Below, piece by piece: positions 17,469 through 43,189 of a stretch of 53,077 nucleotides of DNA; position 1 is the stretch's first letter, and every line of letters begins with the position of its first letter. The DNA is from a virus, in the IMG/VR virus record IMGVR_UViG_3300045996_001542, positions 1-53,077 of that record; one strand, written 5' to 3'. The position numbers and the translations under genes were made by a program. Under the pieces are notes generated by a model. The model did no database searches and was not told the origin of the DNA. It worked only from the letters and a program-made list of their open reading frames with translations.

Positions 17469-18149
17469 TCAGGCGGCCTTCCGCTTCGCCCGGTGGCGCT
17501 CCTCGCGCTCGCGCTGGCAGACCCGGCACTGGCGTGTGCCGTTCTTGCGCACGTACGCGTCGGCCAGGTCGTGGCCCCTCTTGCAGGTGTCCCGGCGCGC
17601 CGCGAGGCGGGGAGTGGGGAGCGGCGCGAGGCCCTGCTCGATGAGGCGACGCCGCTCGCTGGCCTCCTTCACGTACTCATCTCGGCAGGCGCCGCAGTAC
17701 GGCGTCCGGTCCTTGCCAACGACGCGTCGCGCCTCAGCCATCAGGTGCAGCCCACGCTTGCACCGCTCCTGGGGGCCCGAGCCGGTCATGGACGATCCAC
17801 GGCTGTTTTGCCCGTAAGTCATCGCCGCCAGGTGGTCGGGGTTCACGCAGGCGCGGTGGGGGCAGGTGCGCCCGCCGGCGCACTCGCCTCTGGCGGAGGC
17901 CTCGTCGTGGCAGACGTGGCCGACGACCAGGCCCTCGGGGATAGGGCCGACGTGGTGCTCGTAGGAGACGACGTGGGCCAGGCGTCGATCACGCTTCCCG
18001 CCGACGAGGCCGTAGCCGGCGCCCGTCTTCCCGGCGGTGAAGGTCCAGCAGCCCCCAGCTGGGCTCCGCTCAACGCTGCGCATGACGCGCTCGATCAGGG
18101 GTACGGCCGCCAGTTCGGCGGACCTTCGAGTCGATGGCACGACCGGCAC
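17469..18149 (-). CDS. HNH homing-type endonuclease, antisense to the structural operon
   Basis: 226 residues from GTG 18149 (GGAAG 10 bases upstream). An HNH_3-type core spans about 30-105: GGCWTFTAGKTGAGYG, AHVVSYEHHVGPIPEGLVVGHVCHD, then CPHRACVNPDHLAAMT. The C-terminal half has two repeated CKRG-H..CxxC zinc units (CKRGLHLM...CGACRD and CKRGHDLAD...CRVCQRER), often seen in DNA-binding tails of such enzymes. Its orientation against its neighbours and its place between capsid and tail genes mark it as a free-standing mobile gene that probably spreads by cutting homologous phages lacking it. Confidence 0.8.
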   Translation of the reverse strand: MPVVPSTRRSAELAAVPLIERVMRSVERSPAGGCWTFTAGKTGAGYGLVGGKRDRRLAHVVSYEHHVGPIPEGLVVGHVCHDEASARGECAGGRTCPHRACVNPDHLAAMTYGQNSRGSSMTGSGPQERCKRGLHLMAEARRVVGKDRTPYCGACRDEYVKEASERRRLIEQGLAPLPTPRLAARRDTCKRGHDLADAYVRKNGTRQCRVCQREREERHRAKRKAA

Positions 18150-41527: not shown

Positions 41528-41967
41528 CAGAACAACTTTCCCTGGTCGGGGTGGACGGGGTTCACGGGCTGCACGGCCGCGTCGTCCAGCCAGAGCCGGT
41601 CGCCGTCCAGCCGCCACACGATCGTGGGGATCGCTTTCTTGCGCGCCTCGGACAGGCACCCGGACGCTCCGGTGGACTGGTCGCGGATGAACACGACGCA
41701 CACGTCCGCGCCGAGGTAGGCCATGCGCCGGTTGCGGATCGCGCCGGCCAGGTGGCGCCCGTACCGGGCCCAGTCGGCGGGGTGGCGCTCCACGTCCCAC
41801 CCGCGTTTGCGCGCCAGGAGGTCGGCGTAGTGGTCCGCGCCCGTGCGGCACGCGCCGTGCACGACGACGACCTGCCGCGCGGGGGTCTCGCCCACGACCT
41901 GGTCCAGCACCGTGGCGATCGTGGTGGCGTCGACCCAGTCCCGAGACCCCGCGACCAGGAGCCTCAT
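41527..41967 (-). CDS. SLOG-superfamily (YspA/DprA-like) nucleotide-binding protein
   Basis: 146 residues from ATG 41967; longer upstream starts read poor sequence. Rossmann-type SLOG features: MRLLVAGSRDWVDATTI, VVVVHGACRTGADHYAD (glycine-rich ligand loop), IRNRRMAYLGADVCVVFI and a final strand IPTIVWRLDGDR. SLOG proteins bind or make nucleotide-derived ligands; in phages, relatives occur near DNA-modification and anti-defence genes. The ligand is not known here. Confidence 0.75.
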   Translation of the reverse strand: MRLLVAGSRDWVDATTIATVLDQVVGETPARQVVVVHGACRTGADHYADLLARKRGWDVERHPADWARYGRHLAGAIRNRRMAYLGADVCVVFIRDQSTGASGCLSEARKKAIPTIVWRLDGDRLWLDDAAVQPVNPVHPDQGKLF

Positions 41968-42911
41968 GAGGGTGAGAACTCCGCCATGCGGCGGATCGCC
42001 CCGAAGTCGATCCCGTCGAGGCTGGGCCCGACGTCCGCCGGGGCACCGACACGGCACTGCGGGCACATCGTCACACCGTTGCCCGGGTGCGGACGGTCAC
42101 CACCTGGCTGCCCGTGCGGGCACTCGGGCATGGTCCCCAGAAGCTCCAGGTCCTCCGCGAGCCGCTGGACACGAAGTTCCCCAGCGCGCTCGTAGGCACG
42201 GCCCGCGAGGGTGCAGCCGCGGCAGTTCTCGCCACCTCCGGACGCGGGGGGGTTGGGCTTGTCCTGATGCCGGGTGCACTGGTTCGGGTAGGCCGGCGCG
42301 GCGAAGCCGCCGCCGTTCGTCGGGTCGATCGCCGTTCGCTCCGTCGCCGTCTCGCGCGTTACGGAAGGTGACGAAGCAGAAGAAGTCTCCACGCGCTGAT
42401 CAGACCTGGCGGCTCCGCCGCCGGTCCTCTTCGTACGACCAGTCTTCGTACGACCAGTATTTGTAGTTCTCTTTCTTTGTAGTGGCTGGCCAACCGGATC
42501 CGGTTCAACCGGATCCGGCTTAACCGGATCCGGATTTCCAGGACGCGGTGGGACCGTGTCCGGATTTCCAGGACGCGGTACCTCGTCCTCGGGCAGGGGC
42601 GCCTCGATGTCGATGGCAGGATCGTCGGTGACGTAGTACTCCAGGCTCTCGAACCTGCCGCCCTTGCGGACCCCGGTCCGCGTCACGTACCCGGCCTCGA
42701 TCAGCTCGTTGAGGGCAGTCGCGATGGCGTCACGCCCCTCGGTACCTTGCTCCGCGAGCTGACGGATGCTGGTCTTCCATCCCGGCGGCAGGCTCAAGAG
42801 GTAGGCCATGAGGCCACGCGCCCGGAACGACAGCGTGCTCTTGCGCAGCGCGCCGTTGGCGATGAGGGCGAAGTTGTCCGCCACACGGGCGGACCTGGTG
42901 ATCGTGGTCAT
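41964..42911 (-). CDS. Replication initiation protein-like, winged-HTH domain
   Basis: 315 residues from ATG 42911 (GGAGAGG upstream). Residues 10-85 form a winged HTH of phage replication-initiator type: LIANGALRKSTLSFRARGLMAYLLSLPPGWKTSIRQLAEQG and ALNELIEAGYVTRTGVRKGGRF. A central Pro/Thr-rich segment (about 105-165) is encoded by tandem DNA repeats that resemble an origin. The C-terminal third holds Cys/His clusters (CTRH, CRGC, CPHG, CPQC). Like lambda O, it may bind iterons within its own gene and load a helicase. First gene of the leftward early block. Confidence 0.65.
   Translation of the reverse strand: MTTITRSARVADNFALIANGALRKSTLSFRARGLMAYLLSLPPGWKTSIRQLAEQGTEGRDAIATALNELIEAGYVTRTGVRKGGRFESLEYYVTDDPAIDIEAPLPEDEVPRPGNPDTVPPRPGNPDPVKPDPVEPDPVGQPLQRKRTTNTGRTKTGRTKRTGGGAARSDQRVETSSASSPSVTRETATERTAIDPTNGGGFAAPAYPNQCTRHQDKPNPPASGGGENCRGCTLAGRAYERAGELRVQRLAEDLELLGTMPECPHGQPGGDRPHPGNGVTMCPQCRVGAPADVGPSLDGIDFGAIRRMAEFSPS
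42429..42579. repeat. Origin-like repeat cluster inside the initiator gene
   Basis: Reading the plus strand: two tandem 15-bp copies CTTCGTACGACCAGT (42429-42458); an AT-rich stretch of about 27 bp (42459-42485); three tandem 15-bp copies AACCGGATCCGG plus 3 bases (42492-42536), each with the palindrome CCGGATCCGG; and two copies of TCCGGATTTCCAGGACGCGG (42529-42548, 42559-42578) spaced 30 bp. The layout repeats / AT-rich / repeats within an initiator gene is that of lambdoid origins. Confidence 0.6.
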
Positions 42912-42915
42912 GAAG

Positions 42916-42940
42916 CCTCTCCGGGTATGGCTCGGAGAGG
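42916..42940 (-). promoter_or_regulatory. Hairpin covering the ribosome site of the initiator gene
   Basis: CCTCTCCG / CGGAGAGG, 8-bp perfect stem with a 9-base loop. On the leftward mRNA the 3' arm is the GGAGAGG Shine-Dalgarno, 4 bases before ATG 42911. Folding would block translation until the hairpin is opened. Confidence 0.5.
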
Positions 42941-42968
42941 AGGGTGCGACCAACCACGACCTGCGGCC

Positions 42969-42997
42969 CCAGGTTGTCCGAATTGCTGCTAACCTGG
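42969..42997. promoter_or_regulatory. Inverted repeat in the divergent control region
   Basis: CCAGGTT / AACCTGG separated by 15 bases, in the gene-free stretch 42912-43260 between the leftward initiator gene and the rightward lysis genes. Possible operator; promoters in both directions are expected here but none is convincing. Confidence 0.4.
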
Positions 42998-43039
42998 CCC
43001 CAGACGAGAGGGGGTCGTGATTGGTGCACGCTCCTCTTG

Positions 43040-43072
43040 TAGAGGTCCCGGGTTCTCCGCCCGGGGCCTCTA
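43040..43072 (+). terminator. Rho-independent terminator, possible end of a small RNA
   Basis: 13-bp stem TAGAGGTCCCGGG / CCCGGGGCCTCTA (one G-U pair), 7-base loop TTCTCCG, then CTCTTTT. This is the only terminator in the window with a clear U-run. It points rightward, although no rightward gene precedes it back to 42912, so it may end a small non-coding RNA antisense to the initiator leader. Confidence 0.65.
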
Positions 43073-43168
43073 CTCTTTTGTCTGCAATGCGTCTATCTAC
43101 TGTCTGCTCGCAGGTTACCGGTTCCTCACGTCCGCCGTGACCCGGAGGGTGAAACTCGTTTCCCACCA

Positions 43169-43189
43169 GGTGCGTAACCGTTACGCACC
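43169..43189. promoter_or_regulatory. Dyad operator site 5
   Basis: GGTGCGTAAC-C-GTTACGCACC, 10-bp perfect arms, 72 bases upstream of the endolysin start. Well placed to control the lysis operon. Confidence 0.7.

Follow-up and report, generated by a model that had tools for sequence, protein, structure and literature searches.

The 53,077-base virus record analysed here over its whole length (69.7% GC; hereafter the window) very probably carries a replication origin embedded in its own initiator gene, at positions 42455-42571, within the gene spanning 41964-42911. The repeats found there, the origins reported or inferred in the same gene elsewhere in the family and the coincidence with the AT-richest spot of the record point to this site as the most likely start of phage genome copying. 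As gene and site form one segment, the initiator and its origin would co-evolve and be inherited together. In-gene origins have been described in a few model phages, and a 2006 review on phage replication modules may cover such origins in general; the present one is a member of this known kind, with an unusually regular array of six iterons. What it adds is an in-gene origin read from sequence alone in a high-GC phage, and a rule of half-sites and spacing that appears to recur across phyla and to survive a change of reading frame.

Iterons and AT-rich stretch within the initiator gene

Table 1. Coordinates in the window of the initiator gene, its domains and the elements of the proposed origin.
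Feature	Coordinates	Strand	Comment
Initiator gene P0001	41964..42911	(-)	315 aa; replication-initiator role suggested by PHROG replication-initiation families
Ribosome-binding site GGAGAGG	just upstream of P0001 start		putative
N-terminal winged-helix domain, residues 1-102	42606..42911	(-)	HTH_36, family alignments; presumed iteron binder
Iteron 1 CTGGAAATCCG	42561..42571	(-)	
Iteron 2 CGGTCCCACCG	42546..42556	(-)	
Iteron 3 CTGGAAATCCG	42531..42541	(-)	
Iteron 4 CGGTTAAGCCG	42516..42526	(-)	
Iteron 5 CGGTTGAACCG	42501..42511	(-)	
Iteron 6 CGGTTGGCCAG	42486..42496	(-)	
AT-rich stretch	42455..42483	(.)	presumed DNA unwinding element; record's lowest-GC spot
Second repeat block	42428..42458	(-)	two perfect 15-bp copies of ACTGGTCGTACGAAG, beyond the AT-rich stretch
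C-terminal part, two Cys/His clusters	42054..42278	(-)	C212 H215 C230 C233; C264 H266 H275 C283 C286

P0001 is the first gene of a leftward operon that also encodes a SLOG-family protein, a RusA resolvase, a PIN protein and a Rad52/Sak-type annealing protein; RusA and the Sak-type protein are also the partners of rep in phages TP901-1 and 80alpha. Neither a DnaB_C nor an IstB/DnaC-type match was found in the 53-kb record, so that the host's proteins would be used. The leader of the gene (42912-43073) contains a long inverted repeat (fold z -2.5) and, at 43039-43073, a strong terminator-like hairpin.

In the DNA coding for the linker between the winged helix and the C-terminal part, six 11-bp dyads of the form CKG-N5-CMG, or C(G/T)G-N5-C(C/A)G written out, follow one another on the minus strand with a step of exactly 15 bp (42486-42571; nt 341-426 of the gene). 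The unit was defined from the relatives, and on this point we depart from an earlier note on this DNA. All the repeats named in that note are present (CTTCGTACGACCAGT at 42429 and 42444, three copies of AACCGGATCCGG at 42492, 42507 and 42522, and two of TCCGGATTTCCAGGACGCGG at 42529 and 42559), but its framing of the repeat unit was wrong: AACCGGATCCGG was rejected as the binding unit, since the unit found family-wide is the CKG-N5-CMG dyad and GATC is a spacer. The palindrome CCGGATCCGG is made up of CCG, GATC and CGG, that is, the half-site ending one dyad, the spacer and the half-site of the next.

The six copies vary at their centres and are constant in their half-sites. At a period of 15 bp, the array is the only chain of at least three dyads in the 53-kb record; at the other periods from 12 to 30, the longest chain in the whole record is two, except at period 30, itself a multiple of 15, where it is three. 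When codons were permuted synonymously within the linker, none of 500 permutations reached six dyads, and the mean longest chain was 1.76.

The array directly adjoins the AT-rich stretch, whose length had been put at about 27 bp and which is real: the 27-bp windows starting at 42455-42458 share the minimum of the record, with 8 of 27 G+C. The spot is the GC minimum at all the scales tested between 27 and 120 bp, with a tie at 120; at 150 bp other places in the record are equally low. The GC content at third codon positions (GC3) of the linker is low with respect to the locus's own codon usage (z = -4.32).

As for the second repeat block, 15-bp repeats like it, roughly ACGAAGGACTG, are seen by eye in REQ2 and L039, and repeats of roughly this sequence, at ~12-15 bp, lie in or after the AT-rich zone of REQ2 (L011), Whack (L012), L039, L071 and L074. 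Again by eye, the ACGAAGGACTG-type repeat of the Rhodococcus-type relatives resembles the TTCGTACGA block at 42428-42458.

Dyads and reading frames in the relatives

A tblastn search with P0001 yielded 160 phage records, from which 15 named phages were taken, and a search of IMG/VR with the winged-helix alignment yielded 221 confirmed relatives, the best 80 of which were used. With the window, this amounts to 96 genes, reduced to 64 by removing 8 shorter than 420 nt and 24 near-duplicates. No close relative of the whole P0001 protein was found (19 stretches matched the pattern, none of which was confirmed), nor was a near-identical phage found for the structural region, three records giving a short terminase match only.

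In the 64 linkers, CGG-N5-CCG occurs 98 times, as compared with 38.7 ± 4.5 under synonymous permutation (z 13). Gaps of 3, 4, 6, 7 and 8 show no excess, a gap of 2 shows a smaller one (23 vs 12.4), and the self-match of the linkers at a 15-bp offset also exceeds synonymous permutation (z 16). Phased chains of CKG-N5-CMG, a consensus refined on the same 64 relatives in which it is counted, reach at least two dyads in 41 of the 64 loci and at least three in 18, whereas for eleven other combinations of gap and period chains of at least two are found in 0 or 1 of 64. Taken singly, 21 of the 64 loci have p <= 0.05, and when the winged helices are clustered at 50% identity, chains of at least two are found in 11 of the 19 clusters. 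Two phased dyads of this consensus are absent in 23 of the 64 relatives, an Arthrobacter group (Tank, Pointis, Ranunculus, AWGoat) being among them; the relatives that lack them may use other half-sites.

The AT bias is likewise found across the family. In 54 of the 64 cases, the linker's lowest-GC 30-mer ranks among the lowest 1% within its locus, and in 59 among the lowest 5%. Relative to the codon usage of each locus, third-position GC is reduced by as much as 0.28 in the zone 25-45 codons beyond the winged helix. The GC3 z of the linker is below -2 at 34 of 64 loci; the winged-helix part has such a value at 0 of 64 and the C-terminal part at 5 of 60. The codons most enriched in the AT-rich zone of the relatives are TTA, CTA, ATA, GTA, AGA, ACT and AGT. 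Specific codons are favoured there and not A/T endings in general, and some k-mers (e.g. CCCCTAAGA and TAAAGAAG) are commoner than under synonymous permutation; the zone may possibly hold a specific single-strand motif.

One might hold that all this concerns the protein only, a proline-rich flexible linker having grown by tandem duplication, and the rare codons reflecting drift or translational pausing between domains. The linker is indeed of low complexity in most relatives, PDPV and TGRTK units repeat, the identity of neighbouring copies is explained by tandem duplication, and rare codons do cluster at the domain boundary. However, a purely coding origin fits poorly with dyads and 15-bp phasing that lie above synonymous permutation across the 64 relatives, and with copies that, in the window, keep their half-sites while their centres change. 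The identity at the DNA level therefore does go beyond what the protein needs, as the earlier note had it, both in the gene itself and in its relatives; erasure of the repeats by synonymous changes in relatives, which that note had set against its own reading, is the opposite of what we see, since the dyads persist in the DNA.

The reading frames also bear on this question. The CGG-N5-CCG sites of the relatives fall in one codon frame 77 times, in another 21 times and in the third never; a few of the 21 second-frame sites lie outside arrays, for example CGGCGGCGCCG in GGGAA, but others are clear. L067 reads CGGTTCAACCG within SVQPT and L091 reads it within FGSTD; CGGATTATCCG falls within SDYPM in L028 and within NGLSV in L078. 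The same dyad is read in two frames into unrelated peptides, and it is thus the DNA that is kept, and not the peptide.

Viral contigs were further scanned for a pair of dyads at 15-bp spacing and, as a control, for a pair at 18 bp, a spacing that keeps the frame; each spacing gave at least 120 loci, of which 120 were listed. The scan motif was narrower than the refined CKG/CMG consensus, near-duplicates were kept, the family HMM was the one trained on the 64 relatives, and a pair was counted if it lay between -30 and +240 nt relative to the end of the family winged helix, on the same strand. This holds for 64 of the 120 listed loci with the 15-bp pair (51 sharing one frame, the remaining 13 the other), and for 0 of the 120 listed loci with the 18-bp control. 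Given these observations, we consider an explanation by coding alone very improbable.

The exact palindrome pair of the window has no match in the viral contigs. Window-like iteron pairs are found at 25 loci in bacterial genomes, 2 of which (L356 and L364, one of them a Legionella genome) lie downstream of the winged helix, and at a single viral locus (L341), which has no family winged helix; overall this makes 2 of 26, and the remaining 24 are taken as chance.

Exact DnaA boxes (TTATCCACA or TTGTCCACA) are absent from the whole 53-kb window and present in some relatives. They lie in the coding linkers of L043, L054, L077, L091, L024 and others (7 exact boxes vs 1.2 expected; 17 vs 3.5 when relaxed), the linker of L043 having two perfect TGTGGATAA, 12 bp apart. 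Some matches further downstream (L024, L043) lie in a stretch rich in Cys, and the protein may account for them.

We lean slightly towards the broader view that a C(K)G-N5-C(M)G code with a 15-bp step and a TA-rich melting zone is common to dsDNA phages of Actinobacteria, Firmicutes and Proteobacteria and independent of reading frame, that the origins of many phages and prophages can be read from it, and that in a subgroup DnaA boxes within the same coding segment tie initiation to the host DnaA. Should the dyad rule hold experimentally, origins could be mapped without experiments in phages and prophages of a large group, and the rule of half-sites and spacing would be a clean case of a DNA constraint overlaid on a coding sequence. 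Such a phylum-crossing, frame-independent iteron code may be new: we did not meet it in the literature searched, whose coverage is incomplete, so that its absence from print is not established.

The initiator protein and known systems

A winged helix-turn-helix at the start of the gene, as proposed from the translation, was recovered both as an HTH_36 match (E 1.4e-5) and as a predicted fold, the AlphaFold model of residues 1-102 being a winged helix with a mean pLDDT of 80. The P0001 sequence gave nothing significant against solved structures, and Foldseek with the winged helix gave zero matches in the PDB at E <= 0.001, its weak matches being to the Geobacillus DnaB primosome protein (5wtn), RctB (5ube) and MarR-type regulators. 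Among the PHROG families, P0001 has matches to several that carry a replication-initiation annotation and, more weakly over the whole protein, to 'O-like' ones; PHROG 4707 (annotated replication initiation protein) is matched by 26 of 26 aligned members. The Cys/His clusters of the C-terminal part are possible zinc modules for replisome contacts, and by eye their spacing is similar in the Gordonia phage Clawz.

One may picture initiation as follows. Newly synthesised initiator would attach to the dyads in the form of dimers, with the winged helix as the presumed iteron-binding domain; six such dimers on the DNA could wrap or bend it, the TA-rich stretch beside the dyads would melt, and the C-terminal part, which carries the Cys/His clusters, would bring in the host replicative helicase. 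Our model for this mechanism is lambda, for which iterons are described together with an AT-rich tract that is crucial for unwinding (PMC7466680).

The family HMM trained on the 64 relatives gives 86.9 bits for TP901-1 Rep and 97.0 bits for 80alpha ORF20. TP901-1 ORF13 is described as binding repeats within its own gene that serve as ori (PMC8965321), the 80alpha origin is placed inside ORF20 on the grounds of a mutant that is not complementable in trans (PMC5499656), and the annotation of the 80alpha record has a putative rep_origin within the ORF20 gene. The proposal of an origin inside the initiator gene is thus supported by homologues for which in-gene origins have been reported or inferred. 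Winged-helix homology, in-gene repeats and an adjacent AT-rich element being all present, P0001 would belong with the HTH_36-type initiators with in-gene origins, of the TP901-1 Rep and 80alpha ORF20 kind.

80alpha ORF20 shares with P0001 a homologous winged helix, an origin annotated in the gene and linkage to Sak and RusA, and has three phased YGG-N5-CCR dyads (gene nt 318, 333 and 348) followed by an AT-rich block; it differs in its low-GC genome, looser half-sites, another dyad frame and an adjoining DnaC-like loader gene. Its 15-bp self-match is weakly better than synonymous permutation, 33 of 300 permutations reaching the observed value. TP901-1 ORF13 (Rep) also has a homologous winged helix and in-gene direct repeats with an AT-rich stretch after them, within a Sak-SSB-Rep-RusA module, but its phased dyads are two and of TGG type, and its repeats do not go beyond synonymous permutation (141 of 300 reach the observed self-match). 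The half-sites of both phages fit only the looser form YKG-N5-CMR. The replication protein of the Geobacillus phage GBSV1 has six phased CKG-N5-CMG dyads with an AT-rich block after them; here the locus is of 48% GC, the winged helix is 39% identical and the origin is putative. By contrast, r1t ORF11 and Tuc2009 Rep were rejected as family members, since they have no match to the family HMM and no such dyads, and represent a different initiator type.

The likeness to lambda suggested at the outset stands for organisation and not for descent. Lambda O has the same order of winged helix, iterons, AT-rich region and C-terminus, with iterons at nt 349-433 of the gene as compared with 341-426 here, but its iterons are of 18 bp with starts 20-24 bp apart, and it uses the P loader. 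Its N-domain scores 0.4 bits against the family HMM (E 0.17, with 4 targets), so that homology is not detectable, and P0001, although its initiator and origin are organised like lambda O and ori, is not filed as a member of the lambda O family. SPP1 gene 38 is described as containing direct repeats and an AT-rich unwinding element, oriL, inside the initiator gene (PMC6316719).

Alternative roles and other sites of the record

The dyads could alternatively be an in-gene operator by which the winged-helix protein tunes or represses its own transcription, the origin lying elsewhere, e.g. in the non-coding repeat block at 1380-1680. The helix is MarR/GntR-like, a second repeat-rich block does exist in the record, and the sign of the skew does not single out 42.5 kb as a classical origin. 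The turn of the cumulative GC skew that the earlier note asked about is present, the curve peaking at 43,026 and reaching its lowest point at 17,769. Typical bacterial origins have the opposite sign, however, and we therefore do not use the turn as support. Nevertheless, the site lies ~340-460 bp inside the gene, right beside the AT-richest point of the genome, and an operator has no need of such a neighbour. Other members of the family are known to have in-gene origins, and the AT bias recurs in the corresponding position throughout the family. Autoregulation is moreover compatible with a role as origin, and we judge it highly unlikely that the dyads are an operator with the origin elsewhere. 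Even less likely is a role of the segment as RNA, with the palindromic repeats forming a structure in the initiator mRNA: the segment does fold better than shuffles (z -4.9), but its strong stems arise from the GATC-spacer palindrome, a feature that varies among the relatives, and the conserved dyads have AT-rich 5-bp centres and arms of 3 bp.

Apart from the proposed in-gene origin, other kinds of site were observed in the record. The block at 1380-1680 contains CCCGAAA and GTACCCGAAACGG units and holds 6 of the 7 plus-strand CCCGAAA of the record; it is a candidate second origin, partition or packaging site. The palindrome GTAACSGTTAC occurs nine times (1331, 13779, 34889, 41513, 43174, 46467, 48338, 51899 and 51942), most copies lying within the longer GGTGCGTAACSGTTACGCACC and the one at 43174 lying ~260 bp upstream of the initiator start; these copies look like a dispersed operator, stoperator or centromere-type site.
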